Of a stretch of 43,637 nucleotides of DNA, positions 22,808 to 40,306 are shown piece by piece (the stretch's first letter is position 1; the number at the start of each line of letters is the position of its first letter). The notes under the pieces were generated by a model. It was not told the origin of the DNA. It saw only the letters and a list, made by a program, of their open reading frames with translations, and did not search any database. The stretch lies in the NCBI GenBank assembly GCA_946411525.1, contig CAMKEI010000015.1, forward strand, positions 1-43,637, given 5' to 3'. The DNA comes from an uncultured Clostridia bacterium. Its GTDB lineage: Bacteria > Bacillota > Clostridia > Christensenellales > Aristaeellaceae. The translations under genes were made by a program, and so were the position numbers.

Positions 22808-22841
22808 GAGCGGGTACTGCCGCTCCGGAGACAAAAAGATC

Positions 22842-22871
22842 TGGACATTTGCAGGGTAAAATGTGTACAAT
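22842..22871 (+). promoter_or_regulatory. Promoter of the STAS operon, near-copy of the sigma-factor operon promoter
   Basis: TGGACA (22842-22847), 18 bases, TACAAT (22866-22871). An overlapping TTGCAG/TATAAC pair (22849, 22871) is a second option. The segment 22841-22872 matches the minus-strand promoter at 34915-34946 at 27 of 32 positions, with the same spacing, including the spacer blocks CAGG and AAAA. It contains TGGACA and TGTACA as near-direct repeats 22 bases apart. Confidence 0.75.
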
Positions 22872-22916
22872 ATAACACCACCGGGTAAACGAACCAATTC
22901 AGAGGAGGTACCCATC

Positions 22917-23216
22917 ATGACGATTGAAAAAAAAGTGAACGGAACCGCGCTGGAGATCGCGCTGGAAGGCCGTCTTGACACCATGACCGCGCCGGAGCTG
23001 GAAGCGGAGCTGAATCAGTCCCTGGGCGGCGTGGAAACCCTGACGCTGGATTTCAGCAGACTGGAGTATATTTCTTCCGCCGGTCTGCGGGTACTTCTCA
23101 CTGCGCATAAGATGATGAGCGACAAAGGCGGTATGCAGATCACCAACGTGAATGAAATCGTACAGGAAGTATTCGAAGTAACCGGCTTTGCGGATATTCT
23201 GGAAATCGCGCATTGA
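22917..23216 (+). CDS. STAS-domain protein (anti-sigma factor antagonist-like)
   Basis: 99 residues, one STAS domain as in SpoIIAA/RsbV. Such proteins are phosphorylated on a Ser by an RsbW-type kinase and dephosphorylated by a PP2C enzyme to switch partners. Here ISSAGLRVLL carries S53 and S54; by family position S54 is the probable phosphosite. ATG 22917 is preceded by AGAGGAGG. An upstream in-frame start at 22863 exists but would add a non-family extension before the ribosome binding site. Its immediate partner gene (23232) is a degenerate HATPase. The PP2C protein at 35096 is the best candidate phosphatase in the window. Confidence 0.93.
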   Translation: MTIEKKVNGTALEIALEGRLDTMTAPELEAELNQSLGGVETLTLDFSRLEYISSAGLRVLLTAHKMMSDKGGMQITNVNEIVQEVFEVTGFADILEIAH

Positions 23217-23231
23217 GAAAGGGCTTTCATC

Positions 23232-23834
23232 ATGAAAACAGACGTAATTACGGTTTCCAGCAAAGGAAAACGGATCGAAACGGCACTGGAACAGGTGGAC
23301 AAGGTGGCGGCCTATAAGGAGCTGTCTCCGAAGAATGCGCTGCATCTGCGCCTGCTGACAGAAGAAATGATGGGCATGATGCGCTCCATCACCGGCGAAC
23401 CGGAAGGACAGTTCTGGATCGAGGATCAGAACGGTGAGTATCAGCTGCATCTGAAGGTTGCCACGCGTTTGAGCGCTGAAAAGAGAGAAAAGCTGCTCTC
23501 TGTTTCCGCCACGGGAAAAAATGAGTCCGCGCGGGGCTTGATGGGGCGCCTTCGGGCGTTCTTTGACTGGGGCTGCGATGAAGACTATGACGGCTTTGTC
23601 GGCCCGCTCATGCTTCCGGACGCGTTTGAGCATTCCAGCTCCCCTACCCTTGACTGGGAGTGGTCCATGCGGCGGTATGAGAATGTCCTTTCTTCCCGGA
23701 TCGGCCATGACGCCGACGCCGAGGAAGCCTGGGACGAACTTGAGAAATCCGTGGTCAGACATGTGGCCGACGATGTTCGGGTCGCCATCAGCGGCGGATC
23801 CGTTGAGATGATTATCCTGAAGAAACTCGCGTAA
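23232..23834 (+). CDS. Degenerate HATPase-like partner of the STAS protein
   Basis: 200 residues, no confident named family. The layout resembles an RsbW/SpoIIAB kinase: N-terminal strand (DVITVSSKGKRIETALEQV), then LHLRLLTEEMMGMMRSI at the N-box position, a strand pair EGQFWIEDQNGEYQLHLKV, and a final DDVRVAISGGSVEMIILKKL. The N-box Asn is replaced (EEMMGMM) and no DxGxG or GxGLG nucleotide motif is visible; instead there is a 90-residue insert. I infer it cannot bind ATP normally and may act as a binding partner of the STAS protein. It sits 15 bases after that gene and shares its terminator. Confidence 0.65.
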   Translation: MKTDVITVSSKGKRIETALEQVDKVAAYKELSPKNALHLRLLTEEMMGMMRSITGEPEGQFWIEDQNGEYQLHLKVATRLSAEKREKLLSVSATGKNESARGLMGRLRAFFDWGCDEDYDGFVGPLMLPDAFEHSSSPTLDWEWSMRRYENVLSSRIGHDADAEEAWDELEKSVVRHVADDVRVAISGGSVEMIILKKLA

Positions 23835-23843
23835 AGTGAAAAA

Positions 23844-23883
23844 AAGCATGGCCCGCCCCGGAGCGGCGGGCCATGCTTATTTG
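23844..23883 (+). terminator. Strong terminator after the STAS operon
   Basis: Perfect 14-bp stem 23844-23857 / 23865-23878 (arms AAGCATGGCCCGCC and its complement) with a seven-base loop, followed by ATTTGTC and preceded by an A-run, so it may work in both directions. Confidence 0.88.
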
Positions 23884-23992
23884 TCCGCGTTGTGCCGGTC
23901 TGTCCGCAGCGCGTCATCGTGTCAGGCAGGCGGATCTTACGCGAAGTGTAAAAGTATCCTTACCTCAAACGGGACTGATCGGGAGGAAGAGT

Positions 23993-25393
23993 ATGATTCT
24001 GGAAAAGATTGCAAGCGTAATCACATTATTCTTTTTCCAGGTGAGAGCGAATCAATGGGACTATCTTATCATGGGAATCCTGCATGCGGCAGGCATGTAT
24101 GGAATCTTCAGGAAATGCGGTCTGAAAGGCTGGCAGGCCTTGATTCCATGCCTCCGGGAGGACAAGCTTGGCGAAGCGGTCGGTATGGAGCGGGAAGGCA
24201 GGGTTGCCGCCATGCTGAGAGGCGCCGAAATCATCCTGAGCGAAGTGTCGCTGCTGATTACTCCGGCCGGACGCACTGAAAACGTGCCTGAGTTTATTGC
24301 TGTCGCCGAGCTTTTGGTAGCGCTTGCGCTGCTGATCTATATGATCCGGGTGTACAGCGGCCTGTGCGAGGTGTTTGACCGGAAAAAGCGGTGGATTTTC
24401 CTCTGGGTTATTCTGGGTTTCATTCCGGCCTGTCTGTGGGGATGGATGAAGAAGTATCAGCCGCTGTGGCAGGCGGATGAAATGAAAAATGACGCTGCGT
24501 CCTATTTTTCCGGCACGAAGGCAGCCGTGCTGGAGCAGGGTCTGACCGTGAACCTGGAGGAACGGACCACCATTGAGCTGTTTAAAAAGAAATATCTTCT
24601 CCGGGATATCCATATGTATATCCGGCCTGGCCGTATGGTGCTGCTGCTGGGCGGTTCCGGCGCGGGCAAAACAACCTACCTGAACGCTGTCAACGGCTAT
24701 GAGAAAGCAAAGGCGGAGGTCATGCTGAACGGCCGGAACATGTACAAAGAGTATAAGGATATGCAGTACGACATCGGTTTTGTTCCCCAGCAGGATCTGA
24801 TGCGGGGTTCTGATACTGTTTTCCGGACCCTCATGGACGCCGCGATGCTGCGCCTGCCGTCTTCCTTTACCAGGGCGGAACGGGAAGCCCGGGTGAACGA
24901 AGTGATGGGAATCTTCGGCCTGACGCACGCGAAGAACCATCTGGTGACGAAGCTTTCCGGCGGACAGCGGAAACGCCTGTCCATTGCCATGGAACTGATC
25001 TCCAATCCGGCGCTTTTCATCCTGGACGAGCCGGACAGCGGCCTTGACGGCGTCATGGCGCGGGAACTGTTCCAGCAGCTGCGCCGGATCGCGGATCAGG
25101 GCAAGATTATCATCGTGATCACACATACGCCGGACCGCGTGATCGACCTCTTTGACGATGTGATCGTATTGGCAAAGGACGCGAAACGGATCGGACGGCT
25201 TGCCTGGTACGGGCCTGTTGACGAGGCGCGGGCCTTCTTCGGAAAAGACAGCATGGAGGAAATAGTCAAGGTGATCAATCGCCCGGAGGAAGGCGGCGAA
25301 GGCCGGGCGGACGAGTTCATTATCAAATTTGCCGAAAGAGAAGGAAGAGGTGCCCCGGCGGGGGATGCGGCGGAGGTGAAGCAGCATGTCTGA
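23993..25393 (+). CDS. ABCG-type ABC transporter ATPase with N-terminal membrane region
   Basis: 466 residues. ATG 23993 is chosen because GGGAGGAAGAG lies just upstream; the longer open frame overlaps the preceding terminator. Residues about 20-160 are a membrane region with three or four helices and the segment GLKGWQALIPCLRED, resembling DUF5684-like proteins. The ABC domain (about 190-430) has Walker A GGSGAGKTT near 220, signature SGGQRKRLSIAMEL near 322 and Walker B FILDEPDSGLDG near 340; the KRLSIAMEL form is typical of the ABCG/White subfamily. Its stop overlaps the permease start by eight bases. Substrate and direction are unknown; ABCG members are mostly exporters. Confidence 0.85.
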   Translation: MILEKIASVITLFFFQVRANQWDYLIMGILHAAGMYGIFRKCGLKGWQALIPCLREDKLGEAVGMEREGRVAAMLRGAEIILSEVSLLITPAGRTENVPEFIAVAELLVALALLIYMIRVYSGLCEVFDRKKRWIFLWVILGFIPACLWGWMKKYQPLWQADEMKNDAASYFSGTKAAVLEQGLTVNLEERTTIELFKKKYLLRDIHMYIRPGRMVLLLGGSGAGKTTYLNAVNGYEKAKAEVMLNGRNMYKEYKDMQYDIGFVPQQDLMRGSDTVFRTLMDAAMLRLPSSFTRAEREARVNEVMGIFGLTHAKNHLVTKLSGGQRKRLSIAMELISNPALFILDEPDSGLDGVMARELFQQLRRIADQGKIIIVITHTPDRVIDLFDDVIVLAKDAKRIGRLAWYGPVDEARAFFGKDSMEEIVKVINRPEEGGEGRADEFIIKFAEREGRGAPAGDAAEVKQHV

Positions 25394-26849
25394 AGCGAAT
25401 ATGACCGGAGCGAAACGGACGCGCCGGATCCGGCATACCGGCCGGCAGAGCCAGGTGCGCATCTATCTGGGGAAACAGCTCCGTTTCTTTATCAATGAAA
25501 GTGACTGGAAAGTGCTGCCCATGGCGGCGATCATCGCAGGTCTGGTAGCCATGGTTATCCGCAAGCGCTTTTTCGTGAGCATGGAGGGCAGCCTGATCGG
25601 TGGGTTTGCCCTGACCTGCGTAGCCATCTGGAACGGCTGCTTCAACTCGATACAGTCCGTGTGCCGGGAACGGGCGATTATCAAGCGGGAGCATCGTTCA
25701 GGAATGCATATTTCCTCCTACATCACGGCGCATATGATCTATCAGTTCATACTGTGCGCGGCCCAGACGGTGCTGACCATGTTTGTGCTCCGACAGCTGG
25801 AAGTGCCGATACCGAGGGGGTACGGATCAGGAAAGATTACGCCGTTCATCATCTGTGATATCGGTATTTCGATGTTCCTGATTTCTTATGCGGCGGATAT
25901 GCTGAGCCTGTTCCTTTCCAGTATTTCACGCACTACCACCGGCGCGATGACGCTGATGCCTTTCATTCTGATTTTCCAGCTGGTTTTTTCCGGCGGCATT
26001 ATTCCGCTGCCCGAGTGGAGCAGGCAGATCTCCGAGTTCACTGTTTCCAGTTACGGCATCAGGGCGATTACCGCGCAGGGCGGCTATAATGAGCTGCCGA
26101 TGACGTCGGTATGGACAACGGTGTCCGGGATGCGGGACAGCGAAATCGGGGGTACGGTTACCGTTGGGGAAATTATGGACAAGCTGGACAGTCCGGTTGT
26201 GGAAAAGCAGCGGGACAGGGAAGTACTGAAGGCCTATACCGTCGGTGAAGTGGCGGACATTCTGAACAGCGCGGACAATTACCTGCATTTGCGGGAGAAG
26301 GAGATTACCCATCCGGTTAAACTGCGGGAAATTACAGAGATGATTCTGACGGATGACGCGCTGAAGCCTGTGCGTGATCAGAAACTGATCTCTGATCGGA
26401 CACTGGGTGACCTGCTGACTGCTTTTTCGGCAGATCCGGCATCTGAGGAATTACTGGATCTGGAAATAGGCAGGACACTGACGCTCGGGCAGGTGCTGGA
26501 TGCCTTGCATGCAGAGGAACTGGTCAAAGCGTCTTCTGATAAACAGCTGAATGAACCGGTGACAGTCGGTGCTGTTGCGGATTTCCTGAAGAACAATGAG
26601 GTGCTGAAAGGGCAGCGGGACAGGACGGTTACCCTGAAAACCACGGTGGGGGAAGTGATAGACTTCTTCGGAGAGGAAAACGTGAAGGAGTTCATCCAGC
26701 AGAAGACCGCTGCGGCGGCTCATAATTCTGAATATGAGAATTCTGTGGACAATATTCTCAGCAACTGGTTTGCGCTGTGCGTGTTTATCTTCGCTTTTGC
26801 CATGCTGGCAACTATTGCCCTGGGACTGATCGATAAGGACAAACGGTAA
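25386..26849 (+). CDS. ABCG-type permease with an inserted 27-residue-repeat domain
   Basis: 487 residues, ABC-2/ABCG-like membrane subunit. Helices are predicted at about 46-62, 68-88, 110-140, 153-178, 185-210 and 457-480. GCFNSIQSVCRERAIIKREHRSGM is the ABCG-style coupling region, and FQLVFSGGIIPLP fits helix 5. Between the last two helices, where ABCG proteins have their large outside loop, residues about 255-446 hold seven tandem units starting T-V/L-G at 259, 285, 312, 339, 366, 393 and 420. The insert is hydrophilic and presumably outside the cell. Partner is the ATPase encoded just upstream. Confidence 0.82.
   Translation: MSEANMTGAKRTRRIRHTGRQSQVRIYLGKQLRFFINESDWKVLPMAAIIAGLVAMVIRKRFFVSMEGSLIGGFALTCVAIWNGCFNSIQSVCRERAIIKREHRSGMHISSYITAHMIYQFILCAAQTVLTMFVLRQLEVPIPRGYGSGKITPFIICDIGISMFLISYAADMLSLFLSSISRTTTGAMTLMPFILIFQLVFSGGIIPLPEWSRQISEFTVSSYGIRAITAQGGYNELPMTSVWTTVSGMRDSEIGGTVTVGEIMDKLDSPVVEKQRDREVLKAYTVGEVADILNSADNYLHLREKEITHPVKLREITEMILTDDALKPVRDQKLISDRTLGDLLTAFSADPASEELLDLEIGRTLTLGQVLDALHAEELVKASSDKQLNEPVTVGAVADFLKNNEVLKGQRDRTVTLKTTVGEVIDFFGEENVKEFIQQKTAAAAHNSEYENSVDNILSNWFALCVFIFAFAMLATIALGLIDKDKR
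26160..26723 (+). repeat. Seven tandem 27-residue protein repeats in the permease
   Basis: Codon register places T-V/L-G (K-L-R in unit 3) at residues 259, 285, 312, 339, 366, 393 and 420, giving spacings of 26, 27, 27, 27, 27 and 27. Loose consensus: TVGEVxDxL, about nine residues, then RDxxL. Each unit looks like a short helix followed by a strand. DNA identity between units is low, so this is an old, protein-level repeat rather than a recent duplication. Confidence 0.85.
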
Positions 26850-26882
26850 TGCAGCGATCAATACGCATCCACAGGGAAAGAA

Positions 26883-26916
26883 GGCGGCGCCGCGGAAAGA
26901 GTTCCGCGGCGCCGCC
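26883..26916. terminator. Shared terminator between convergent genes
   Basis: Perfect 15-bp GC-rich stem 26883-26897 / 26902-26916 with a four-base loop between the permease stop (26849) and the HAD gene stop (26944). The T-rich tail (TTCTTTCCC) is on the minus strand, so it fits the HAD gene best; the plus-strand tail TGTTCGGGTT is weak. Confidence 0.8.
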
Positions 26917-26943
26917 TGTTCGGGTTCGCCTGAGGGAATGGAT

Positions 26944-27453
26944 TCAGCGGATCAGCTTCTTGATGTGCTCCGCCCGTTCAATGATTTTTTCCTTCCAGTC
27001 GTCGTCCTGGGCGTCCAGCTGATAGGTACGGAATCCGTACTGGGCGCCTGCGGAACAGATGACGGCCTCGTCGTCAATATGCAGGGAAATCCGGTACCGG
27101 CTCGGCATTTTCTGCGGAAGGATTGTTTTGCTGTTCCGCTGGACTTCCTTCAGATGCCGGGTTCCGTTGACGATTCCGTCGAAGTGAACGCCGTAGAGCC
27201 TAAAGAGCAAGGTGATATACCGCTCGGAGCGGAAAGAAGAAGTGTAAACCCAGACTTCATAACCCATGTCCTGAAGCGTCCTGATGACGTCCGGTGTTCC
27301 CAGGCGGAGCCGTTCCTGAAAGATGCGGTTGAAGGGGAAGGGCGGCGGCGGCTCTGTTTTATGGGTTTTCGGTGAGACAAAAAGCACCTCGTCCAGATCG
27401 AAGGAGACGCGCATTTTTTCTTCCGATAACTGCTGCGCATTGTGTCTGGCCAT
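26944..27453 (-). CDS. HAD-superfamily phosphatase-like protein
   Basis: 169 residues. Motif I FDLDEVLF (DxD), motif II VYTSS, motif III probably the Lys in QKMPSRY, motif IV IDDEAVI are in the right order for a haloacid-dehalogenase-type phosphatase with no large cap. The ATG at 27453 has AGGAGGAG six bases upstream; MRVSFDLDE is an internal alternative but lacks a site. It is a single gene with its own promoter and terminator. Substrate unknown; the insertion PPPPFPF after motif I is unusual. Confidence 0.75.
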   Translation of the reverse strand: MARHNAQQLSEEKMRVSFDLDEVLFVSPKTHKTEPPPPFPFNRIFQERLRLGTPDVIRTLQDMGYEVWVYTSSFRSERYITLLFRLYGVHFDGIVNGTRHLKEVQRNSKTILPQKMPSRYRISLHIDDEAVICSAGAQYGFRTYQLDAQDDDWKEKIIERAEHIKKLIR

Positions 27454-27486
27454 GATTCTCCTCCTGCCCGGTTTCTGATTGATACC

Positions 27487-27515
27487 ACTATATCAAAAAA
27501 CCGCCGGATTGCCAA
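27487..27515 (-). promoter_or_regulatory. Promoter of the HAD gene
   Basis: On the minus strand TTGGCA (27510-27515), exactly 17 bases, then TATAGT (27487-27492) preceded by TGA, an extended -10. It lies about 35 bases before the ATG at 27453. Confidence 0.75.
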
Positions 27516-27659
27516 ACAAAACATACGGCATGAGAGTCTTTCCGGACGCCTGCCGGGCCGGAGGGAAGCATACCGGAAACAGGCGGTAATAAAAGATTTT
27601 GCTGAAAGATACTGCCATCTTCCATCCGTGTATCGTACAAAAAAATGTCACACGTTCAT

Positions 27660-27688
27660 TTGCCGGGCAATTGATTGTGTGATATAAT
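27660..27688 (+). promoter_or_regulatory. Promoter of the secreted-protein cluster
   Basis: TTGCCG (27660-27665), 17 bases, perfect TATAAT (27683-27688) with TGA directly before it. It is the only clear promoter upstream of the run of genes from 27764 to 34126. Confidence 0.72.
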
Positions 27689-27763
27689 GAACCCCAATGG
27701 AAAAGAATATCATAAGGACAGGCTGTCCCGCTCAGCGGGATGGCGGCAGGAGGTAAAAACACC

Positions 27764-28714
27764 ATGAAAAAACTGATTGTATTGCTTCTCGCGCTGGCGA
27801 TCGTACTGCCCTGTGCCGCGGCGCTCGTGCCGACGGAAGCGAAAGCTGATTCCCTGTACATCATCCCGGACAGTGACAAGCGGGAATTGACCAGGGAGGA
27901 ACTGTGGAATTATCAGTATGACACGCTCCTGTATGCGTTCAACGAGATTTACGCGCGGCATGGTTACAAGTTTGAAACCGGCAGCCGTTGCTATAACTGG
28001 TTCATCCAGATGCCCTGGTATACGCCCAACGCCAACGAGAACAGCCATGATCATCATGCGACCTATTCCCAGTGTTCCAAGATAGAAAACAAGAATGTGG
28101 ACCTGATCAAGGACGTTCGCCGGGAAATGCGGGAGAAGAAAACAACCAACCCGAAGGGCAAGGGCATGCCCACGCCGCCGGCCCAGGTGAACAAGCCCCG
28201 CGGATTCAACTATGTGGAGCTGCAGACCGGCCAGAAACTGGACGTTTATACGGCGCCTTCCGTATATGCTTACCGGGCGAACAACGGGAAAGCGTCGGTC
28301 AGCACAAACGGCGCGGTATACGCGCTGGGCTACGACAATGGCTGGATGCTGATGCTCTATGAAGCCAACGCGGCCGGACAGTACCGGATCGGCTATGTGG
28401 ACGGCGCGAAGATTAAAGGTAAGAAGCCCGCGCTGGACATACTGAGCTGGGATGGCAGCCCGGTGAAGGTGGAGGTTTCCACAACGCTGACGGATGATCC
28501 GGCAAGGACAGGCAAAGCGCTGACGCAGCTCCCGGCCGGCACCGAGGTCATTTATCTGACGACGATGTACAATTCTTCCGCGTGGGACTATGTGGAAACA
28601 ACAATCAACGGTCAGACGGCCCGCGGTTTCGTGCCTTCCGGAACGCTGTCCATGACCGTGGACGCTACGGAAAAGGATGATCCGGATCTGCTTCCGGGAC
28701 AGGGAGACGGCTGA
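27764..28714 (+). CDS. Secreted YARHG-domain protein with SH3-like regions
   Basis: 316 residues. Signal peptide 1-28 (ends TEAKADS). A YARHG domain follows: LWNYQYDTLLYAFNEIYARHG with the namesake motif at 63-67 and the expected WYTPNA about 20 residues later. After a Pro/Lys linker (about 130-145), residues about 150-225 and 230-300 look like two SH3-like domains (LDVYTAPS..., GNGW-type). YARHG domains are extracellular and of unknown exact role, often in cell-envelope proteins. ATG 27764 has CAGGAGG nine bases upstream. First gene of the secreted cluster. Confidence 0.8.
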   Translation: MKKLIVLLLALAIVLPCAAALVPTEAKADSLYIIPDSDKRELTREELWNYQYDTLLYAFNEIYARHGYKFETGSRCYNWFIQMPWYTPNANENSHDHHATYSQCSKIENKNVDLIKDVRREMREKKTTNPKGKGMPTPPAQVNKPRGFNYVELQTGQKLDVYTAPSVYAYRANNGKASVSTNGAVYALGYDNGWMLMLYEANAAGQYRIGYVDGAKIKGKKPALDILSWDGSPVKVEVSTTLTDDPARTGKALTQLPAGTEVIYLTTMYNSSAWDYVETTINGQTARGFVPSGTLSMTVDATEKDDPDLLPGQGDG

Positions 28715-28758
28715 ACAGTCCGGAAGGATAATGACTGATCAACGAGGAGGACGGGGAA

Positions 28759-30564
28759 ATGAAGAAAAAAGTTCTGATCCCGTTACTTGTGCTGGCGATA
28801 CTCTGCGTGAGTCTTGTCGCGCCGGCAGCGGGAGAAACGGTCAGGCTCAGCCTGAATACCGGAAGGCTGATGATCTACAAAGCGGACAGTTCTTTTCTGA
28901 GTGGACTGATTTCCGGGGAAGATGACGGATTGCAGGTCATCGTTCTTTCCGTGAGAAAGAGCCAGAAGCTGCAGGTCAGCGTACAGCCGAGCACCGTAAG
29001 GAACAAGAAGGTTACGATGTCCGTGGATAAAAAGGATGTTGTTCAGGTCAGGGGGAACACCCTGACAGGCCAGAAGCCGGGCGAGGCGGTGCTTACGATT
29101 ACCAGTGACGCGGATCCTTCGGCCAAACTGCAGTACCGCATCGTGGTGGTTCAGCCGGTAACGCGGATTACGCTGTCCGCGCCTTCAAAGGATGTACCTG
29201 TCGGCGGAACCATGACCCTGAAGGCGTCCTTCATTCCGGAAAATGCGACCCGGAAAGGGGTGACCTGGGCGTCCTCGAACCCGATGATTGCCAAGGTGGA
29301 TGAAAACGGCGTCGTGACCGGTGTAAAACGGGGCGGAACCCGGATTACGGCCACATCGGCCGACGGCAGCAATATCCGCGCCAACATCAACGTGCAGGTA
29401 ACCCAAAGCGCGGAAAAAATTACGCTGGACAAAAAAGAAGTGACGGTCGACGCGGGCCGGACCGTTGCGCTGAGGGCTACCGTCCTGCCGAACGACACGA
29501 ACGATAAAAAGGTTTTCTGGTCCTCTTCAGATGAGCGGGTTGCCAGAGTCAACGCGCAGGGCAGGGTTACCGGCGTGTCGCTGGGCGACTGTGTGATTAC
29601 CTGTACAAGTCAGAAGGTCGGAACCGTGCAGGCGACAGCTGTCGTGCATGTCCAGCAGCCGGTGAAGAAGGTCACCTTCGGAAACGCGCCGTTTGTTTAC
29701 AAAGGAGAAACGGCTACGCTGAGCTGGGTGATTGAACCGGCAAACGCCAGCAATCCGAAGCTGAAACTGACCTCGTCCAACGAACGGATCCTGACCGTCA
29801 AGGATGACGGAACCGTAACCGGCATTTCCGCCGGGGAAGCGTATGTCAAGGCGGTTACGACCGACGGATCGAACCGGCAGGCAAAGGTCCGTGTCAAGGT
29901 GGGCGAGCATGTGACCGGCGTGCACATGAAACGGAACGTCGCCTATATCGATCTCAAGCAGACGTCCACTGCCGGCGCGATCCTGGAGCCGGACAAGGCG
30001 ACCAACAACAACATGACCTGGGAAAGCGCCGATCCGTCCATTGCAACAGTGGTGCCTGACAGCAAGGCGCCCAACAAGGCCAAAATCACCGGCGTCAGAT
30101 ACGGGGAAACCATCGTCACCGGAACGACAGAGGACGGCGGATTCCAGACGTCCATCCGGGTAAAGGTCGGCGATTGGGAGAATGCGCTGAGATGGGTGGA
30201 CGGTTCGTTTGACGGCAGGGGGAACCTGATCTTTGAGATCAGAAACACCAGCGAGCTGAATATCACAAGCATCACAATTGAAATGGAAGGCTACGACTTC
30301 GACGGAAACCCGGAAGCGATCAACAGCAAGAACGGATCAAACGTCGTCAAGGCGGTATACAGAAAGCCGCTCGGTCCGGGAGCCGTTACGAAACAGAATC
30401 AGTGGAAGATGATCGATTACGCCAGGGAATATGTTAACGGTCACGGGCTTGCTGCGATCGTAGTCCGGATCGTGGAGTTCCAGATTGATAACGACTGGGT
30501 CAAGACGATCCGGAAGAATCATCAGCCGAAGACAGTGTACAATCCGCACAGGGTGCTGCACTGA
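28759..30564 (+). CDS. Secreted protein with tandem BIG2 (Ig-like) domains
   Basis: 601 residues. Signal peptide 1-25 (ends APAAGE). Then one divergent and four clear BIG2-type Ig domains (about 25-130, 132-215, 215-297, 298-380, 381-468); repeating cues are ITLSA/ITLDK starts, VTWASSNPMIAKVDENGVVTGVKRG and its relatives, and strands ending VxVKV. The last about 130 residues (DWENALRWVDGSF...) form a different domain with no sorting signal. BIG2 proteins are commonly surface adhesins or structural spacers. It lies 44 bases after the YARHG gene with GGAGGA before the ATG. Confidence 0.85.
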   Translation: MKKKVLIPLLVLAILCVSLVAPAAGETVRLSLNTGRLMIYKADSSFLSGLISGEDDGLQVIVLSVRKSQKLQVSVQPSTVRNKKVTMSVDKKDVVQVRGNTLTGQKPGEAVLTITSDADPSAKLQYRIVVVQPVTRITLSAPSKDVPVGGTMTLKASFIPENATRKGVTWASSNPMIAKVDENGVVTGVKRGGTRITATSADGSNIRANINVQVTQSAEKITLDKKEVTVDAGRTVALRATVLPNDTNDKKVFWSSSDERVARVNAQGRVTGVSLGDCVITCTSQKVGTVQATAVVHVQQPVKKVTFGNAPFVYKGETATLSWVIEPANASNPKLKLTSSNERILTVKDDGTVTGISAGEAYVKAVTTDGSNRQAKVRVKVGEHVTGVHMKRNVAYIDLKQTSTAGAILEPDKATNNNMTWESADPSIATVVPDSKAPNKAKITGVRYGETIVTGTTEDGGFQTSIRVKVGDWENALRWVDGSFDGRGNLIFEIRNTSELNITSITIEMEGYDFDGNPEAINSKNGSNVVKAVYRKPLGPGAVTKQNQWKMIDYAREYVNGHGLAAIVVRIVEFQIDNDWVKTIRKNHQPKTVYNPHRVLH

Positions 30565-30592
30565 TCCAACAGATAAACAGGAGGGAAAAACC

Positions 30593-31219
30593 ATGATAAA
30601 AAGACTGATTGCTCTGCTGACGGTGCTGGTGCTTGCAGCCGGCCTGATTCCCGCGGCACTGGCGGAGGATGATACGCCTTCCGATTCCGCAGGATACTAC
30701 TATGTCTATACCGAGAACGGCAAAGGACTGAATGTCCGCGACAACCCCGGTGGCAATGTGGTCGGCAGCCTGAAATACGGCACAAGGATCTACTGCTATT
30801 ACCGGGACGGCGGCAACGGCTGGGCGCTGATCGACTTTTACTACAACAAACCGGGTTATGGCTATAATACATATGCCGCTTTTATTTCCAGCCGTTACCT
30901 GCGCAAGAGCAAGCCTCCGGCCAAACCGAGTTCCGGTACTTCCGCTGCTTCTGCCGCGTCTGTCGATCCGGAGGCGGAGATTAACGCGGAATTCAGGAGC
31001 GCAAAAAAGGTGACGCCGTTCACTGTGACGATCCGGCCTTCCCGTGCCAGCGGCTGGGTCAATATGCGCTGGGCGCCCAGCAAGAACGCGGAGATTATGG
31101 CGACATACAAGCAGAATGATAAACTGCTGGTAATCAAGGAACTGACCAACTGGTACCAGGTGGAGGATCAGGACACCGGAGACGTCGGCTTCATCAGCAA
31201 GCAGTTCGTCGTGCAGTAA
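30593..31219 (+). CDS. Secreted two-SH3-domain protein
   Basis: 208 residues. Signal peptide 1-24 (ends PAALAED). Two bacterial SH3-like domains: about 35-105 (GLNVRDNPGGNVVGSLKYGTRI) and about 140-208 (VNMRWAPSKNAEIMATYKQNDKLLVI), joined by an Ala/Ser/Pro linker. No catalytic domain, so it is probably a wall-binding or scaffold protein. CAGGAGGG precedes the ATG; it is 28 bases after the BIG2 gene. Confidence 0.82.
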   Translation: MIKRLIALLTVLVLAAGLIPAALAEDDTPSDSAGYYYVYTENGKGLNVRDNPGGNVVGSLKYGTRIYCYYRDGGNGWALIDFYYNKPGYGYNTYAAFISSRYLRKSKPPAKPSSGTSAASAASVDPEAEINAEFRSAKKVTPFTVTIRPSRASGWVNMRWAPSKNAEIMATYKQNDKLLVIKELTNWYQVEDQDTGDVGFISKQFVVQ

Positions 31220-31246
31220 GAAGCACAGAGCAGAAGGAGGTAAATT

Positions 31247-32335
31247 ATGATGAAAAAGATCATTGCCGTTGCCCTGAGTCTTGCGATGCTGCTTTGTGCC
31301 GCATCCGCGATGGCGGAGGTTCACGGGAAGGTGACGCTCGGAAGCCTGAGCATCAACGGAGACTTTACGCTGCAGTGCGGCCTGCCTGAAGGATACAGAC
31401 TGGTTCCCAAATCTGTTGCTCCGGATCAGATCGTCAGCCAGATTCAATCCGAAGATCCGAATGCGCCGATCATGCAGGTATCCGTTGCATATGATGAACA
31501 GTATTACGACGTGGAAAGACTGAACGATCTGAACGAGGAAGAGCTGGAGCGGCTCGAGCAGACCTATATTGACGATGATCCGGAAGTGGAGATCACCTAT
31601 GGCGAGACCGGTTACGGCACGCTGCTGCTGGTTGCCCGGCATGAAACGGAAACGTTTGATTTCATCAGTTTCTTCTCCATTTACAGGGGATACTGCATTG
31701 AGTTCGTGCTGACGCCTTCCCAGACAGCGGAAGACAAGAACCTGACGGATGAACAGCTGGAAATCTGCGTTCACTTCCTGACGGATCTGGACTTCATTCC
31801 TACGGGAGCCACCGTCACAGGAGAGCAGGCGATCGCGGGACGCACGTTCATTACGAATCTGAGCGACTATGATCCTGAAACCAATACCCTGACAGCGGTG
31901 GTTATGCATCCTATTCCGCTGCCCGAAGCGCAGGTTGAATCGCTGCAGGCCGGCGACACGTTTACTGACGGCCAGCTTGAGGAAGTGATCGAAACGATCG
32001 AGACCACCGAAGAGGGCGATATTATCATCAATGACAGCATCGTGCTGGTAAAGGATGACAAGGAGTACCACGTCTATATGTACGAGCAGGAATATATCGA
32101 GCCCTATGTCGAACTGAAGTTGGAGATTCCGGACGGCCTGCGGATTACGGACAATATCGACAGGGAGAGCGGCGAACTGCTGGAAGAGCCGGTAACATAT
32201 ACCGTCGAGGAGTTCAAGGAGATGCTGGCCGATGAAAACCTGACGCCCGATTTCGCAACGGACAACGTATGGGTTGCTTTCAATGTAAACTGTGAAATGG
32301 TTTCCGTGGAGCGGGTCTATACTCCCGCGCAGTAA
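31247..32335 (+). CDS. Secreted acidic protein of unknown function
   Basis: 362 residues; I do not recognise the family. Signal peptide 1-23 (ends ASAMAEV) is clear. The rest is strongly acidic (many Glu/Asp, for example EELERLEQTYIDDDPEVEITYGE), rich in predicted strands and without Cys in a lipobox or any sorting signal. The first half (about 30-190) resembles the overall shape of secreted lipoprotein-like folds; the second half (about 200-355) may be a separate domain. AAGGAGG is seven bases before the tandem ATGs at 31247 and 31250. It lies between the SH3 and MATE genes in the same direction. Confidence 0.7.
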   Translation: MMKKIIAVALSLAMLLCAASAMAEVHGKVTLGSLSINGDFTLQCGLPEGYRLVPKSVAPDQIVSQIQSEDPNAPIMQVSVAYDEQYYDVERLNDLNEEELERLEQTYIDDDPEVEITYGETGYGTLLLVARHETETFDFISFFSIYRGYCIEFVLTPSQTAEDKNLTDEQLEICVHFLTDLDFIPTGATVTGEQAIAGRTFITNLSDYDPETNTLTAVVMHPIPLPEAQVESLQAGDTFTDGQLEEVIETIETTEEGDIIINDSIVLVKDDKEYHVYMYEQEYIEPYVELKLEIPDGLRITDNIDRESGELLEEPVTYTVEEFKEMLADENLTPDFATDNVWVAFNVNCEMVSVERVYTPAQ

Positions 32336-32368
32336 TCTCCTGAAAACAGGCCGGACGGAGGATCCTTC

Positions 32369-34126
32369 ATGATCCGTAAACTTATCAAACAGATGCTGTC
32401 AGCGCAGGTTTCCTCTGCGCTGGCAGTTTCTCTGTGCCTGTTGGTCGACAACATCATGATCGGCCGCTTTCTGGGAGAGCAGGCGATGGCCGCCTACAGC
32501 CTGGCCAATCCGCTGCTGCTCTCCATCGGGGCGGTCGGGACGCTGCTCTCGGCGGGCGTGCAGGTGGTTTGCGGAAAATCGCTCGGTTTTGGCTCCCGGG
32601 AGGATACTGACGCGGGATATTCTTCCGCGGTATCCGCGGCGGCGGCGGTTTCCCTGCTGTTCACAGCAGCCGTACTGCTGTTCGCGCCTTTTCTGGCCAG
32701 AGCCATGGGTGCGGGTACGGGCGGTGAACTTTTTGATATGACAAGGGGATACCTGAGGGGGTTCTGCGTCGGAGCTCCCGGATGTATCGGCGCGCTGGTG
32801 CTGATCCCTTTCCTGCAGATGGCCGGGCAGAGCGTGCTGCTGATAGCGGCCGTCCTGGCCATGACGTTTGCTGATATCGCGCTTGACTTGCTGAACGTCA
32901 CAGTTTTTCACGCGGGGATGTTCGGCATGGGTCTGGCTTCCGCCCTGAGCTATTACGCGGCGATGGCAGTCGTCGGTTTCTATTTTCTGTCGAAACGGTG
33001 CGTGTTCCGCTTTTCCCTCCGGCTGATCAGCCGAAGAAAGATTGCGGAGCTGCTCTGCGGAGGGATCCCGGCCGGTTTTAACATGGCTTCGGCCGTGATC
33101 GCGGTATTTCTCCTGAACCGGGTTCTCAGATCGACAGGCGGCAGTTATGCGCTGGCTGCTTTTGCCGCCATTACGACGCTGGGCAATACGGCTAACTGCA
33201 TCACAACAGGCATCGGAGGCGTTTCCCTGACACTCTCCGGGATTTTCCTGCATGAGGAGGATTATACCGGCCTTCGGATTCTGCTCCGGCTCTTATGCCG
33301 GTACGGCGTAATTCTGGGGATCGGGATGGGAGCTCTGCTGGGCGTGTTTGCGCCTGTGCTGGTCTCACTTTTCATTCCGGAAGCCGGAGAAGCGCAGCGT
33401 GCGGCGGTTCTCGGGCTGCGTCTGTTTGCAGCGGGAATGATTCCCTGCTGTATCAATAACGCTGTCAAGAACGCCTGGCAGGGAACGGGACGGGTTTCCC
33501 TGACTGTGCTGATCTCCCTGCTGGAAGGAACGGTTTTTCCTGTGGCGGCGGCTTTCGCCTTCAGCCGTTTTATGGGGACGGATGGTGCATGGCTTTATTT
33601 TCCGGCCGGGGAAAGCATGACTTTACTGTTTATCGGAATCCTCACAGCAGCGCTCACCCGGGCGGCTCCATGGCGGAACGATGCGGTCCTCCTGCTGAAG
33701 GAGGATTTCGGCGTTTCATCTGACAGGCTGCTGGAGATGGACATCCGCTCCATGAGCGATGTGACAGACGCGGCAGAACGCGCTGAACAGTTCTGCCGTG
33801 CCCACGGACAGAACGCAAAAATCAGCAATCATATTGCGCTGTGTATCGAGGAAATGGCGGCAAATACCATCAAGCACGGGTTCACCAGGGACCGGAAGCA
33901 TCACGATCTGTCCGTACGCCTGCTGCAGAAGGAAGACGATCTGGTGCTGCGCTTCCGGGACGACTGCGGCGCGTTTGATCCGGTCAGCTATATTCCGAGG
34001 GACGGAAAGGATGCGCTGGGGATCCGCCTGGTGCTGGCGTTCGCGCAGGATGTGCGGTACACTTATGCCCTGAACCTGAACAACCTCTGTATCCGGATCG
34101 GTAAAGAGAAAGATCCGGCGACATAA
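32369..34126 (+). CDS. MATE-family transporter fused to an anti-sigma-type HATPase domain
   Basis: 585 residues. Residues 1-445 are a MATE (MatE) transporter of about 12 helices: VDNIMIGRFLGEQAMAAYSLANP at the start and a second half opening GGIPAGFNMASAVIAVFLLNR. Residues about 455-585 are a RsbW/SpoIIAB-like HATPase: N-box CIEEMAANTIKHGF (Glu and Asn present), G1 RDDCGAFDP, G2 ALGIRLVLAFA. The kinase half thus looks functional. A MATE pump carrying a soluble serine-kinase-type domain is unusual; a link to the STAS protein at 22917 is inference. The reading frame is continuous, so it is a real fusion. It ends in a bidirectional terminator. Confidence 0.88.
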   Translation: MIRKLIKQMLSAQVSSALAVSLCLLVDNIMIGRFLGEQAMAAYSLANPLLLSIGAVGTLLSAGVQVVCGKSLGFGSREDTDAGYSSAVSAAAAVSLLFTAAVLLFAPFLARAMGAGTGGELFDMTRGYLRGFCVGAPGCIGALVLIPFLQMAGQSVLLIAAVLAMTFADIALDLLNVTVFHAGMFGMGLASALSYYAAMAVVGFYFLSKRCVFRFSLRLISRRKIAELLCGGIPAGFNMASAVIAVFLLNRVLRSTGGSYALAAFAAITTLGNTANCITTGIGGVSLTLSGIFLHEEDYTGLRILLRLLCRYGVILGIGMGALLGVFAPVLVSLFIPEAGEAQRAAVLGLRLFAAGMIPCCINNAVKNAWQGTGRVSLTVLISLLEGTVFPVAAAFAFSRFMGTDGAWLYFPAGESMTLLFIGILTAALTRAAPWRNDAVLLLKEDFGVSSDRLLEMDIRSMSDVTDAAERAEQFCRAHGQNAKISNHIALCIEEMAANTIKHGFTRDRKHHDLSVRLLQKEDDLVLRFRDDCGAFDPVSYIPRDGKDALGIRLVLAFAQDVRYTYALNLNNLCIRIGKEKDPAT

Positions 34127-34131
34127 AGAAT

Positions 34132-34163
34132 CCGGCAGTTTCGAAAACTGCCGGGTCATTTTT
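34132..34163. terminator. Bidirectional terminator between MATE-HATPase and sigma-factor genes
   Basis: Perfect 10-bp stem CCGGCAGTTT (34132-34141) / AAACTGCCGG (34145-34154) with a three-base loop, then GTCA TTTTT on the plus strand and ATTCTTTA on the minus strand. It serves both convergent operons. Confidence 0.88.
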
Positions 34164-34644
34164 ATTCGGTAAGCGCCTGACGCAGCATCAGGACAGCGTT
34201 CTGATGCCGAAGCTTGACGGCTCCGTAACTCAGGTTCATCAGTTCCGCAATCTCTGTGAGCGGTTTGCCGTCATAGTAACGCAGCACGATGATATCCATC
34301 AGCTGCTGAGGGAGCTTCCTGAGCGCCGCGGCCAGTTCGCCGAGCGCTTCCGAGTTGAGCAGGTCTTCGTCAAGCTCAATGTTGTCGGAGAGGTTTTCGT
34401 CCAGTTCCTCAGTGGGCTTTGTCCGGCGGAAATGGTCGATTACCGTGTTCCGTGTGATGGTAAAGATCCAGGTGTTCAGGGATGCCTTGGACGGATCGAA
34501 GCCTTCGATCTTTCGCAGGATCTTTTCAAACACTTCCGAGTGAAGATCTTCCGCGTCTGCGCTGCTGTGCACCCTGGCGCGGATATATCCCATTACCTTG
34601 CCGCTGTATTCCGTATAGATCTGATCAAGATCTACGGTCTGCAT
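34162..34644 (-). CDS. ECF-like RNA polymerase sigma factor
   Basis: 160 residues, extracytoplasmic-function-type sigma factor. Region 2: LDQIYTEYSGKVMGYIRARVHSSADAEDLHSEVFEKI...SLNTWIFTITRNTVIDHFRR (about 5-75); region 4: LRKLPQQLMDIIVLRYYDGKPLTEIAELMNLSYGAVKLRHQNAVLMLR (about 108-157), an intact helix-turn-helix. No anti-sigma factor of the classic membrane type is next to it; the leader-like peptide gene overlaps its start by 13 bases and is co-transcribed, so that peptide or the partner-switch proteins may control it. Whether it reads the shared promoter is testable. Confidence 0.92.
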   Translation of the reverse strand: MQTVDLDQIYTEYSGKVMGYIRARVHSSADAEDLHSEVFEKILRKIEGFDPSKASLNTWIFTITRNTVIDHFRRTKPTEELDENLSDNIELDEDLLNSEALGELAAALRKLPQQLMDIIVLRYYDGKPLTEIAELMNLSYGAVKLRHQNAVLMLRQALTE

Positions 34645-34835
34645 TCCTTGTCGCCTTTCCGGTTTTTTTCATCCGGTTTTTGCTCGGGAATGCCCGCAGC
34701 GGCGACCCACTCCATTTCGTCCATGCTCAGCTCCTTTACGGCATAGCGTGAATGGACGGAATCGATCACCGACTGAAGCGCGGGGTTCCCCTCGTACTTC
34801 TGGAAATCGAACAGGGTTTTCAGTTTACCCTCCAT
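34632..34835 (-). CDS. Small leader-like peptide with AAG motif, co-transcribed with the sigma factor
   Basis: 67 residues from the ATG at 34835 (AAAGGAGGG nine bases upstream; a GTG at 34844 overlaps the site). The N-terminal half is a predicted helix (KLKTLFDFQKYEGNPALQSVIDSVHSRY); then ELSMDEMEWVAAAG, very like the LSxxELxxVxGG/AG end of Nif11/NHLP and double-glycine leaders; then a short, highly charged tail of 19 residues with a single Cys. If cut after AAG by a C39 peptidase the tail would be the exported product. It may instead be an anti-sigma peptide. No modification enzyme gene is near. Family not named with confidence. Confidence 0.75.
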   Translation of the reverse strand: MEGKLKTLFDFQKYEGNPALQSVIDSVHSRYAVKELSMDEMEWVAAAGIPEQKPDEKNRKGDKECRP

Positions 34836-34915
34836 GGTCGTCACCCTCCTTTCTAAGTGTCTCGCATCAGTTTATACGGCTGCACCCGGCAAGGCGGCAG
34901 TTCTTTGATGAAATT

Positions 34916-34945
34916 ATTGTACATGTTTTTTCCTGAAAATGTCCA
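34916..34945 (-). promoter_or_regulatory. Promoter of the leader-peptide/sigma-factor operon
   Basis: Minus strand: TGGACA (34940-34945), 18 bases, TACAAT (34916-34921). It matches the STAS-operon promoter at 27 of 32 positions with equal spacing. The transcript leader to the ATG at 34835 is about 75 bases. It diverges from the SpoIIE-type promoter. Confidence 0.75.
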
Positions 34946-34991
34946 GTACCGGGTATGCTTTTTTTCGATGCCGGCGGTCAGATCGGAAAGA

Positions 34992-35095: not shown

Positions 35096-37564
35096 ATGCT
35101 GACGATGATACTGAAGATGACCGGGATCACGGTGCTGTATGTGCTGCTGACCGTTGTGATCTGGAAATGGATGAACGGCAGGCGCATACGCATATGGCAC
35201 CGGCTGCTCATCGGCCTGGTTTACGGCGGCTGCTCCGTTCTGTCCACGCATTTTGCCGTGGACTACAGCCAGATGGTGCTGAATGTCCGCGATCTCGGTC
35301 CGTTGATGGCAGGCTTGTTCTTTGATCCTTTCTCGGGTATTCTTGCCGGATTGATCGGCGGGATTGAGCGCTATATTGCCGGCACATACTGGGGCATCGG
35401 AAGCTTTACCAGGAGCGCCTGCAGTGTGTCCACCTGCCTGGCCGGCTTCCTGGCTGCCGCGCTTCGCGTCTGGCTGTTCAAGGAAAAGAAGCCTTCCGCG
35501 ATCTTTGCTTTTATCCTGGGTGCGGTGATGGAAGTGTCCCACATGTATGCGATTCTCATCACTCACCGGGGCAATATGAACATGGCGATCTCTCTCGTGA
35601 AAATCTGCTGCGAGCCGATGATTCTTTTCACGGGTTTCGGCATGGCGGCCGGTTCCGCGGCGCTGAAGGTCCTGGCCGGCGAGTGGCGGAATCCGTTCCG
35701 TCCGCTCCGCAGGGAAGAGCAGCCGCTTTCCCGGCGCTTTCAGTTCTGGCTGTTTGTTGTGACGGTGGTGGTGCTGCTGTCTGGCCTAGGGGTTTTCTAC
35801 GCGCTTCAGACACAGTCTGCCATTCAGAATGCGAAGAATATGGTAACCAATGCGGTTACCGATATCCGGGAATTCCATGCCGGCGAATCCTGGAGGAATG
35901 GGGACCGCCTGATGCTTCATGTGGGCAGGAACGGCGCCTATGACCTGATTCTGGACCGCCGGACGATCGTGGCGGGAACGCACGCGGATGAATTTATGAC
36001 GGGGGAAGACCGGCGGCAGATTCTGGAAGCGCCGGAGAACGTATTCTTCACCGCGAAGGTTTTCGGGACGGAAGCCCTCTGCCGCATGGAGAATCTGGGC
36101 GATAATGTGACGGTGCTTGTGCAGGTGCCGTCGTCTGAGATTTATGCCGAGCGCGACGCGCAGGTATATGAGATTGCCTTCGCGGACATTCTGCTTTTTG
36201 CGGTGATTTATACGCTGGTTTCCCAGCTGGTGCAGCTGATAGTCGTGAACAATCTGAGCATGGTGAACGCTTCGCTGGCAAAGATTACCGGTGGAGACCT
36301 GGATGAGGTGGTTGATGTTCGCGGCTCCTCTGAATTCGCGTCCCTGTCCGACGATATCAACCAGACGGTGGATACGCTGAAGGGATACATCACAGCGGCG
36401 GAAAAGCGTATTGAGCAGGAGCTGGAATTCGCCAGAACAATCCAGGATTCCGCGCTGCCGAAAAACTTTGATTTTCCCCGCCGTGACTTTGAGGTGTATG
36501 CCGTCATGGATCCTGCAAGGGAGGTCGGCGGCGATTTCTATGATTTCTTCTTCGTCGACCAGAACAGGATTGCCCTGGTGATTGCCGACGTTTCCGGAAA
36601 AGGTATTCCGGCCGCGCTTTTCATGATGCGGGCGAAAACGGCGATCCGCGGCCAGGCTGAATCAGGACGGGAACCGGCGGATATCCTGTTCCGTACGAAC
36701 AGCATCCTTTGCGAGGGCAATGAAGCGGAAATGTTCGTCACGGTCTGGCTGGCCATCGCTGATCTGCAGACCGGACAGGTGAAGTGTGCAAATGCGGGGC
36801 ACGAGTATCCGGCCGTGATGCGCGCCGGAACCGGCTTTGAACTGCTCAGGGATAAGCACGGACTCGCGCTGGCGGCTATGGACGGTATGCGTTATACCGA
36901 ATATGAGCTGCAGCTGAATCCCGGAGACAGGATCTTTGTTTATACTGACGGCGTGCCGGAGGCTATCAACAGCAGTATGGAACAGTACGGCACGGAGAGG
37001 ATGATCCGGACGCTGAACGCCGCCGGGAACGCCACCCTCCGGGAAGCGCTTTCCGCCGTGCAGGAAGATATGGCAGCCTTTGCCGGTGAAGAGGACCAGT
37101 TTGATGACATCACCATGCTGGGTTTTACCTATATCGGATCCGGGAAGGCGATGACCGGTACGGAAACCTTGACGGTGAACGCAAAGAATGAAAACCTGGA
37201 GCAGGTGCTCGCGTTCATTGACCGGAAACTGGAGAAGGCTGACTGTTCTGTCAAAGCGCAGTACCAGATCCGCGTGGCGGCGGAGGAGATCTTCGTCAAT
37301 ATCGCAAGCTATGCCTACGGGCAGAATACAGGCGACGCCCGGATCAGCGTGAAGACGGAAGGCGGCAGTGCGGAAATTGTATTCCGGGACAGGGGCGATC
37401 CCTTCGATCCGCTGGCGAAAGCCGACCCGGATGTGACCCTTTCCGCGGAGGAACGCCAGATCGGAGGCCTGGGCATCTATATGGTCAAAAAAACCATGAA
37501 CGAGGTGCTGTACCGCCGGGAAGGCGGAGAAAACGTCCTGACGATCCGGAAAAAACTGAAGTAA
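35096..37564 (+). CDS. Membrane sensor with 5TM-LYT, HAMP, PP2C (SpoIIE) and HATPase domains
   Basis: 822 residues. About 1-200: six or so helices with NVRDLGPLMAGLFFDPFSGILAGLIGGIERY, the 5TM-5TMR_LYT sensor type. About 220-370: an outside sensor loop between two helices. About 375-430: HAMP. About 455-680: SpoIIE/RsbU PP2C phosphatase with EVGGDFYDFF, IADVSGKGIPAALFM, YTDGVPEA and DQFDDITML, all metal-binding Asp present. About 695-822: HATPase with N-box AAEEIFVNIASYAY, G1 RDRGDPFDP and G2 GGLGIYMV. Kinase-like and phosphatase domains of a partner switch are thus in one chain. ATG 35096 follows GAGGAAG. Head gene of the exporter operon. Confidence 0.9.
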   Translation: MLTMILKMTGITVLYVLLTVVIWKWMNGRRIRIWHRLLIGLVYGGCSVLSTHFAVDYSQMVLNVRDLGPLMAGLFFDPFSGILAGLIGGIERYIAGTYWGIGSFTRSACSVSTCLAGFLAAALRVWLFKEKKPSAIFAFILGAVMEVSHMYAILITHRGNMNMAISLVKICCEPMILFTGFGMAAGSAALKVLAGEWRNPFRPLRREEQPLSRRFQFWLFVVTVVVLLSGLGVFYALQTQSAIQNAKNMVTNAVTDIREFHAGESWRNGDRLMLHVGRNGAYDLILDRRTIVAGTHADEFMTGEDRRQILEAPENVFFTAKVFGTEALCRMENLGDNVTVLVQVPSSEIYAERDAQVYEIAFADILLFAVIYTLVSQLVQLIVVNNLSMVNASLAKITGGDLDEVVDVRGSSEFASLSDDINQTVDTLKGYITAAEKRIEQELEFARTIQDSALPKNFDFPRRDFEVYAVMDPAREVGGDFYDFFFVDQNRIALVIADVSGKGIPAALFMMRAKTAIRGQAESGREPADILFRTNSILCEGNEAEMFVTVWLAIADLQTGQVKCANAGHEYPAVMRAGTGFELLRDKHGLALAAMDGMRYTEYELQLNPGDRIFVYTDGVPEAINSSMEQYGTERMIRTLNAAGNATLREALSAVQEDMAAFAGEEDQFDDITMLGFTYIGSGKAMTGTETLTVNAKNENLEQVLAFIDRKLEKADCSVKAQYQIRVAAEEIFVNIASYAYGQNTGDARISVKTEGGSAEIVFRDRGDPFDPLAKADPDVTLSAEERQIGGLGIYMVKKTMNEVLYRREGGENVLTIRKKLK

Positions 37565-37607: not shown

Positions 37608-38087
37608 ATGGAAAAGGGACTTTTCCGGCAAAAAAGCATTGACCGTATCTCTTCCCCGGAAGCGCTGCATGACTATATGCGGGTGACCAGCCCGCGGCTG
37701 TGGATGATCCTGGCTGCAGTCATATTGCTGCTGGTCGGGTTTATCGTCTATGCGTCCACGGTCACGCTGGAGAATACCAAGGCGGTCCGGGTACAGGTGG
37801 AGTATTATCACATGTCGGAAGAACAGACCGGAACAGGAGAAACGGCGGACGGCTTTCTGATAACCTGCAGCCTTCCGGCAAATCAGCTGGAGGTGGTCAA
37901 GACCGGTATGAAACTGCGTATCGGAGAGAATGAGGGGCACGTCAGCTGGATTTACTCGTCTGATGATGAGGACGAGATAACGCTCATTTTTACAATGGAT
38001 CATATCAGCCATCCGCTGACCGAGGGTGAATATGACGCGGAGCTGGTCCTTGAGACCACCACGCCGATCAGTTTCCTCTGGAACTGA
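37608..38087 (+). CDS. Miniature HlyD-like adaptor of an NHLP-type exporter
   Basis: 159 residues. The start GLFRQKSIDRISSPEALHDYMRVTSPRLW followed by one helix (about 33-50) is very like the N-terminus of HlyD-type subunits of NHLP bacteriocin exporters. Those proteins then have long coiled coils and a barrel; here only about 108 residues follow, with strands and a possible single lipoyl/barrel-like domain (QLEVVKTGMKLRIGENEGHVSWI). It is complete (good GGAGGATAAC site, clean stop), so it is a short natural form and not a truncation. It lies 16 bases before the C39 exporter gene. Confidence 0.7.
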   Translation: MEKGLFRQKSIDRISSPEALHDYMRVTSPRLWMILAAVILLLVGFIVYASTVTLENTKAVRVQVEYYHMSEEQTGTGETADGFLITCSLPANQLEVVKTGMKLRIGENEGHVSWIYSSDDEDEITLIFTMDHISHPLTEGEYDAELVLETTTPISFLWN

Positions 38088-38102
38088 CGATAGGAGCAGA
38101 AG

Positions 38103-40286: not shown

Positions 40287-40306
40287 GAAGGAGGGGTAAT
40301 TCAGAT

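Follow-up and report, generated by a model that had tools for sequence, protein, structure and literature searches.

Two similar promoter blocks in an uncultured Clostridia bacterium are probably degenerate members of a tandem-repeat operator family with a likely response-regulator reader

Two short blocks within a 43,637-nt stretch of DNA from an uncultured Clostridia bacterium (contig CAMKEI010000015.1, analysed as a whole and called the window here), one preceding a STAS operon and the other a small-ORF/ECF sigma factor operon, are, as judged from sequence comparison, probably degenerate members of a tandem-repeat activator operator with a response regulator (RR) as its reader, the copies in this genome being converted or relic forms. 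The STAS-operon block was confirmed at 22841..22872 on the plus strand and the small-ORF/ECF-operon block at 34915..34946 on the minus strand. A preceding sequence-only reading had described the two promoters as alike including their spacers, and this likeness held: the 32-mers are identical at 27/32 positions, the pattern CTGGACATTTnCAGGnnAAAAnnTGTACAATA fits both blocks with 0 mismatches and gave 0 matches in 100 shuffles, and the best 32-mer identity in shuffled controls (40 pairs of both upstream regions) had a mean of 17.8 and a maximum of 21. The flanks are dissimilar (3/20 upstream, 7/40 downstream), the likeness ending at the block edges. No third copy within 3 mismatches of the 30-base core was detected in the window's own genome assembly (2.45 Mb, 113 contigs, 85% complete; reversed control 0).

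The candidate promoter/operator ahead of the STAS gene has TGGACA (22842-22847, +) as half-site 1, followed by a degenerate half-site 2 AGGGTA (22853-22858, +) and a -10 TACAAT (22866-22871, +) at 18-bp spacing from half-site 1, and the block ends 44 bp ahead of the STAS ATG at 22917. The corresponding elements of the small-ORF/ECF-operon candidate are TGGACA (34945-34940, -), a degenerate half-site 2 AGGAAA (34934-34929, -) and TACAAT (34921-34916, -). The shared control element is real, and these data and those from relatives support its tying both operons and favour a common operator over an element read by the ECF sigma factor.

The first block is followed by a gene for a STAS anti-sigma-antagonist-like protein (22917..23216, +) and by one for a 200-aa partner (23232..23834, +), which often adjoins STAS in relatives and in which no Pfam or NCBIfam family was recognized at E 0.001; an ABC-2-type transporter pair comes next. 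Behind the second block, an ORF of 67-70 codons (34632..34835, -), previously read as leader-peptide-like and without a hit in a family search, overlaps the ECF sigma factor gene (34162..34644, -). The same locus encodes a protein combining 5TMR-LYT, SpoIIE phosphatase and HATPase domains (35096..37564, +) and an NHLM-type peptide exporter composed of a short HlyD-like protein, a peptidase-ABC and a second ABC protein (37608..42511, +). The HlyD-like protein (37608-38087) has 159 aa only, and its match to TIGR03794 covers no more than positions 1 to 36 of that model. A MATE transporter fused to a HATPase_c_2 domain (32369-34126) shares this locus with the STAS/SpoIIE partner-switch genes. Proteins with YARHG, Big_2 and SH3_3 domains (Pfam scan) are also encoded there, and are putatively secreted as read from their N-termini.

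Among 45 genomes of the same genus, the window block was present with up to 3 mismatches in two, the own genome and G038, where both copies precede the orthologous genes (STAS and ECF) and the STAS copy, TGGACATTTGTTGGACA, is a tandem repeat. The block of relatives generally takes the form of a tandem repeat, TRYTGGACATTTRTTGGACA, with an 11-bp period and located 8 bp before an extended -10. Searching for TGGACATTTNNTGGACA at no more than 1 mismatch yielded 57 sites in 18/45 genus genomes, as compared to 5 sites for the reversed control, with some of the counted 1-mismatch sites (e.g. in G003, G004 and G031) possibly due to chance; the own genome had no tandem-form site within 1 mismatch. The genus sites precede STAS, ECF/small ORF, SH3-type, HlyD-like, ABC and Big_2-like genes, among others. 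This bears out two proposals of the earlier reading, that direct repeats form an operator common to both sites and that the STAS pair is linked in its regulation to the sigma/exporter locus. Relatives show the TGGACA repeat explicitly, and the TGGACA/TGTACA pair that had been pointed out, 22 bp apart, spans two 11-bp periods. The exact motif together with the extended -10 was found in at least 120 public stretches, many of them rumen and gut Clostridia records, the search pattern being restricted to R in half-site 2 and to TGNTA. The core repeat strings were not found in the open-access literature searched.

The wiring of STAS and ECF loci is patchy, because sense-strand TGGAC[AT]TTT was located upstream of only 6/30 STAS-pair loci and 7/30 ECF loci (30 examined of 68 STAS-pair matches and 30 of 31 ECF matches). 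Orthologous operons devoid of the block, which had been named beforehand as evidence against the tie, thus do occur, and the tie would apply to part of these loci. Divergent motif pairs within 400 bp were seen 26 times in 151 loci (several of L065-L238), with one intergenic region driving both directions. A GTATAGG-like string lies 18-21 bp past the second TGGACA in 12/202 sites among the matches listed (L070, L086, L100, L139, L148, L162, L169, L186, L192, L232 and two others).

Among 46 distinct genus sites selected without requiring any -10, TAnnnT was found at gap 8 after the second TGGACA in 27, while each of the other gaps (2 to 14) accounted for at most 7. The half-site purines agree in 27/46 genus sites and in 143/156 public-contig sites among the matches listed; for the 202 sites among the matches listed, 170 purine pairs were equal (GG 122, AA 48), 19 were AG, 3 GA and 10 other. 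In RR-linked variants both half-sites are altered, as in TGATGGAAA/TGATGGATA (G010, G012) and in TAGGGGACA, which occurs twice in G017. Taken alone, a scan for the best period downstream of 18 high-scoring RR genes is weak evidence: 11 came out as the only best period in 3 cases, shared the top place in 7 and fell behind another period in 8. In SARP promoters, as described in PMC10936776, the repeats are spaced by 11 or 22 bp, with the 3' repeat 8 bp from the -10 and the upstream repeat over the -35. The canonical sites show this spacing (11-bp direct repeats, gap 8 in 27/46), whereas the two sites of the window depart from it, their -10 being 18 bp from half-site 1 and their half-site 2 being degenerate.

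A candidate reader emerged from the genes next to the motif. When the 154 genes lying first downstream of sites (crude ORF calls; start no more than 300 bp from the site) were clustered by similarity, the largest cluster was a receiver-winged-helix response regulator with 15 members. The profile of its DNA-binding domain (A1) matched 12/154 first downstream genes, 11 of which had supplied the profile, and the domain was present in 43/120 motif stretches among the matches listed, 10 of which had supplied it. Pfam scans of 13 RR proteins detected Response_reg in 13/13 and Trans_reg_C in 11/13 at E <= 0.001, with 8 above the gathering cut-off; a phosphorylase (L156) was excluded from these counts. 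Since BTAD, the SARP-defining domain, was recognized in 0/13 by the same scan, we did not file the RR as a SARP. Both the Pfam scans and one AlphaFold model (mean pLDDT 81, pTM 0.55; C-terminal tail poorly modelled), which matches OmpR/PhoB regulators, place a receiver before a winged helix as in that family. A His_kinase-family gene, which we take to be LytS-like, adjoins the RR gene in two loci scanned for it. Co-occurrence and gene adjacency point to this OmpR/PhoB-type RR as the likely reader of the tandem repeat. Locus L115 (G015:C27, 15319-16215) encodes Nif11-type leader peptides next to an NHLM-type exporter and the response regulator, and TGGACA tandem sites are interspersed there.

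Within the 45 genus genomes, 14 had both RR and motif, 4 the RR only, 4 the motif only and 23 neither (Fisher p 3.5e-5, uncorrected for phylogeny and with an RR cut of >=190 bits chosen after the scores had been seen). The RR-only genomes are G012, G022, G027 and G034, three of them with altered repeats, and the motif-only genomes are G003, G004, G013 and G030. In an order-wide sample of 248 genomes, 4 of which belong to the window's genus, exact TGGACATTTRTTGGACA was found in a single genome, G244, with 3 sites (control 0). G244 also contains the top-scoring RR match of the 248 genomes, on the same contig as the motif, with the RR DNA-binding domain approximately 0.8 kb from a motif site and on the same strand. 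An RR match at E <= 1e-20 was obtained in 41/248 genomes, 40 of these 41 being without the exact motif; this includes G279, G021, G141 and G188 with matches of 201-214 bits. Such RR-bearing genomes may read variant repeats, and G021 has 1-mismatch sites.

The ECF sigma factor appears to have a promoter element of its own. Elements at -35 and -10 of ECF promoters resemble CTGCC..CTT-N-CGTA. One candidate of this type, CTGCCGCCTT-N-CCGTAT (34874..34900, -), lies just downstream of the TGGACA block, and a second, CTGCCATCTT-N12-CGTA (27612..27637, +), precedes the YARHG, Big_2, SH3_3 and MATE-HATPase genes. The strict pattern CTGCC-N-YCTT-N-YCGTAT had 13 matches in the 45 genus genomes and 19 for its reversed control, indicating that the pattern itself is not rare; 11/13 matches, including the own one at 34900-34874, are situated 224-292 bp upstream of an ECF gene. 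Because of this placement, and of the known features of ECF promoters, the ECF sigma factor likely reads the CTGCC..CGTA element and not the TGGACA block. A looser search of the own genome returned 3 matches (control 1), at 34900-34874, at 27612 and one elsewhere (G000:C2:35449); the last, surrounded by long ORFs that overlap, was discarded as probable chance. Counterparts of both elements are present in G038, the one before the SH3/Big_2 genes being less similar. Through the element at 34874..34900 the ECF sigma factor probably regulates its own gene, and the two elements together suggest an ECF regulon that comprises the operon of the sigma factor itself and that of YARHG/Big_2/SH3_3.

The earlier alternative of one special sigma factor reading the block, in its simplest form the ECF sigma factor of the second operon acting on its own gene and on the STAS operon, would account for spacer bases being shared besides the hexamers and for one block lying upstream of the ECF gene. 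It is nevertheless highly improbable. An ECF-like element distinct from the block was found by regular expression in 15/30 ECF upstream regions, 10 of these 15 without sense-strand TGGAC[AT]TTT, and a similar element precedes the SH3/Big_2 operon; the TGGACA block, which an ECF-dependent promoter would place before the ECF gene wherever that gene occurs, was present in 7/30. Moreover, the canonical block is a tandem repeat before a sigma-A-like extended -10 and tracks the RR gene. A rigid sigma promoter is disfavoured, the best -10 lying 16 to 19 bp from TGGACA depending on the site. That the blocks are an ordinary sigma-A promoter pair, alike by recent duplication or by chance, is scarcely credible, although TGGACA-18-TACAAT is acceptable by the sigma-A promoter consensus: none of the 40 shuffled pairs exceeded 21/32, the flanks are devoid of the similarity that duplication would leave, and the block is found again ahead of these two genes in G038, with variations in further relatives and, as a motif, widely beyond them.

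More weight has to be given to the possibility that the RR is present in the species and the two sites are working weak or half operators, an account we regard as a real but lesser candidate. No RR match (A1 profile) was detected in the own genome, and the RR may be unassembled there because the assembly is 85% complete. Degenerate half-sites 2 also occur in RR-bearing genomes (G008 twice, G043 and the ECF site of G038), so that RR loss alone does not explain them, and in G018 the RR is present elsewhere and likewise missing between azlD and STAS. The own two sites also resemble one another within half-site 2, and CAGG and AAAA are still common to them, which suggests that some constraint remains. 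Against weak operators speak the lack of any tandem-form site within 1 mismatch in the own genome and the 33 bp it has between azlD and the STAS site, where G038 carries the RR. Furthermore, the STAS promoters of the two genomes differ at 4/30 positions, all in half-site 2; for the ECF promoters it is 6/30 positions, 4 of them in half-site 2. Where TGGAC[AT]TTT precedes STAS or ECF and half-site 2 is degenerate (nine sites), the best -10 lies at a distance of 16-18 bp from TGGAC[AT]. Four sites at such genes are intact tandem repeats; two of them have the -10 at 19, that of G038 has it at 18, and one is ambiguous. We favour converted or relic operators: the own two sites are probably sigma-A promoters today with TGGACA as -35.

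The operator, as seen in relatives, consists of the half-site TRYTGGACA repeated at 11 bp and ending 8 bp before an extended -10. In the mechanism we propose, two phosphorylated RR subunits would occupy the repeats head-to-tail, covering the -35 region, and bring in sigma-A RNA polymerase, similar to SARP and PhoB-type activators, such that both the STAS operon and the small-ORF/ECF operon may be switched on by one signal. From CTGCC..CGTA promoters of its own, the ECF sigma factor would then drive expression of its own gene and of the SH3/Big_2 operon. In the own genome, with the RR not found, half-site 2 degenerate and the -10 at 18 bp, the copies would most likely act now as sigma-A promoters.

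OmpR/PhoB-family RRs bind 11-bp direct repeats head-to-tail, and the RR described here resembles members such as PhoP, PmrA, KdpE and VanR in its receiver, winged helix and predicted fold. It differs from them in that Trans_reg_C passes the gathering cut-off in only 8/13 proteins, in an extra C-terminal tail and in the His_kinase-family neighbour gene found in two loci. With SARPs it has in common a winged-helix DNA-binding domain and, presumably, the regulation of peptide/secondary-product loci, but it differs in carrying a CheY receiver at the N-terminus, in lacking BTAD (13 proteins scanned), in a mostly Clostridia distribution and in its half-site. The canonical promoter architecture matches that of AfsR/afsS described in PMC10936776, with 11-bp direct repeats, the 3' repeat 8 bp from the -10 and the upstream repeat over the -35. 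ECF autoregulation is matched by the CTGCC..CTT-N-CGTA element upstream of the ECF gene, which is separate from the TGGACA block.

We read the finding as a new regulon of a known activator kind whose regulator is apparently missing from the own genome. On a wider scale we propose, tentatively and as nearly an even call, a conserved regulator-operator code of rumen and gut Clostridia, in which a BTAD-less receiver-winged-helix activator with SARP-like geometry would read TRYTGGACATTTRTTGGACA and join loci for exported peptides, partner switching and ECF sigma factors in a single regulon; after loss of the regulator, operators would become sigma-A promoters through loss of half-site 2 and a shifted -10. 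A strongly conserved 20-bp operator makes such a regulon readable from sequence alone. The motif names a candidate regulator and predicts targets, namely peptide exporters, SpoIIE/STAS switches and an ECF sigma factor, in many uncultured gut bacteria, and its degenerate copies provide an example of how a promoter that needs an activator could come to work without one.
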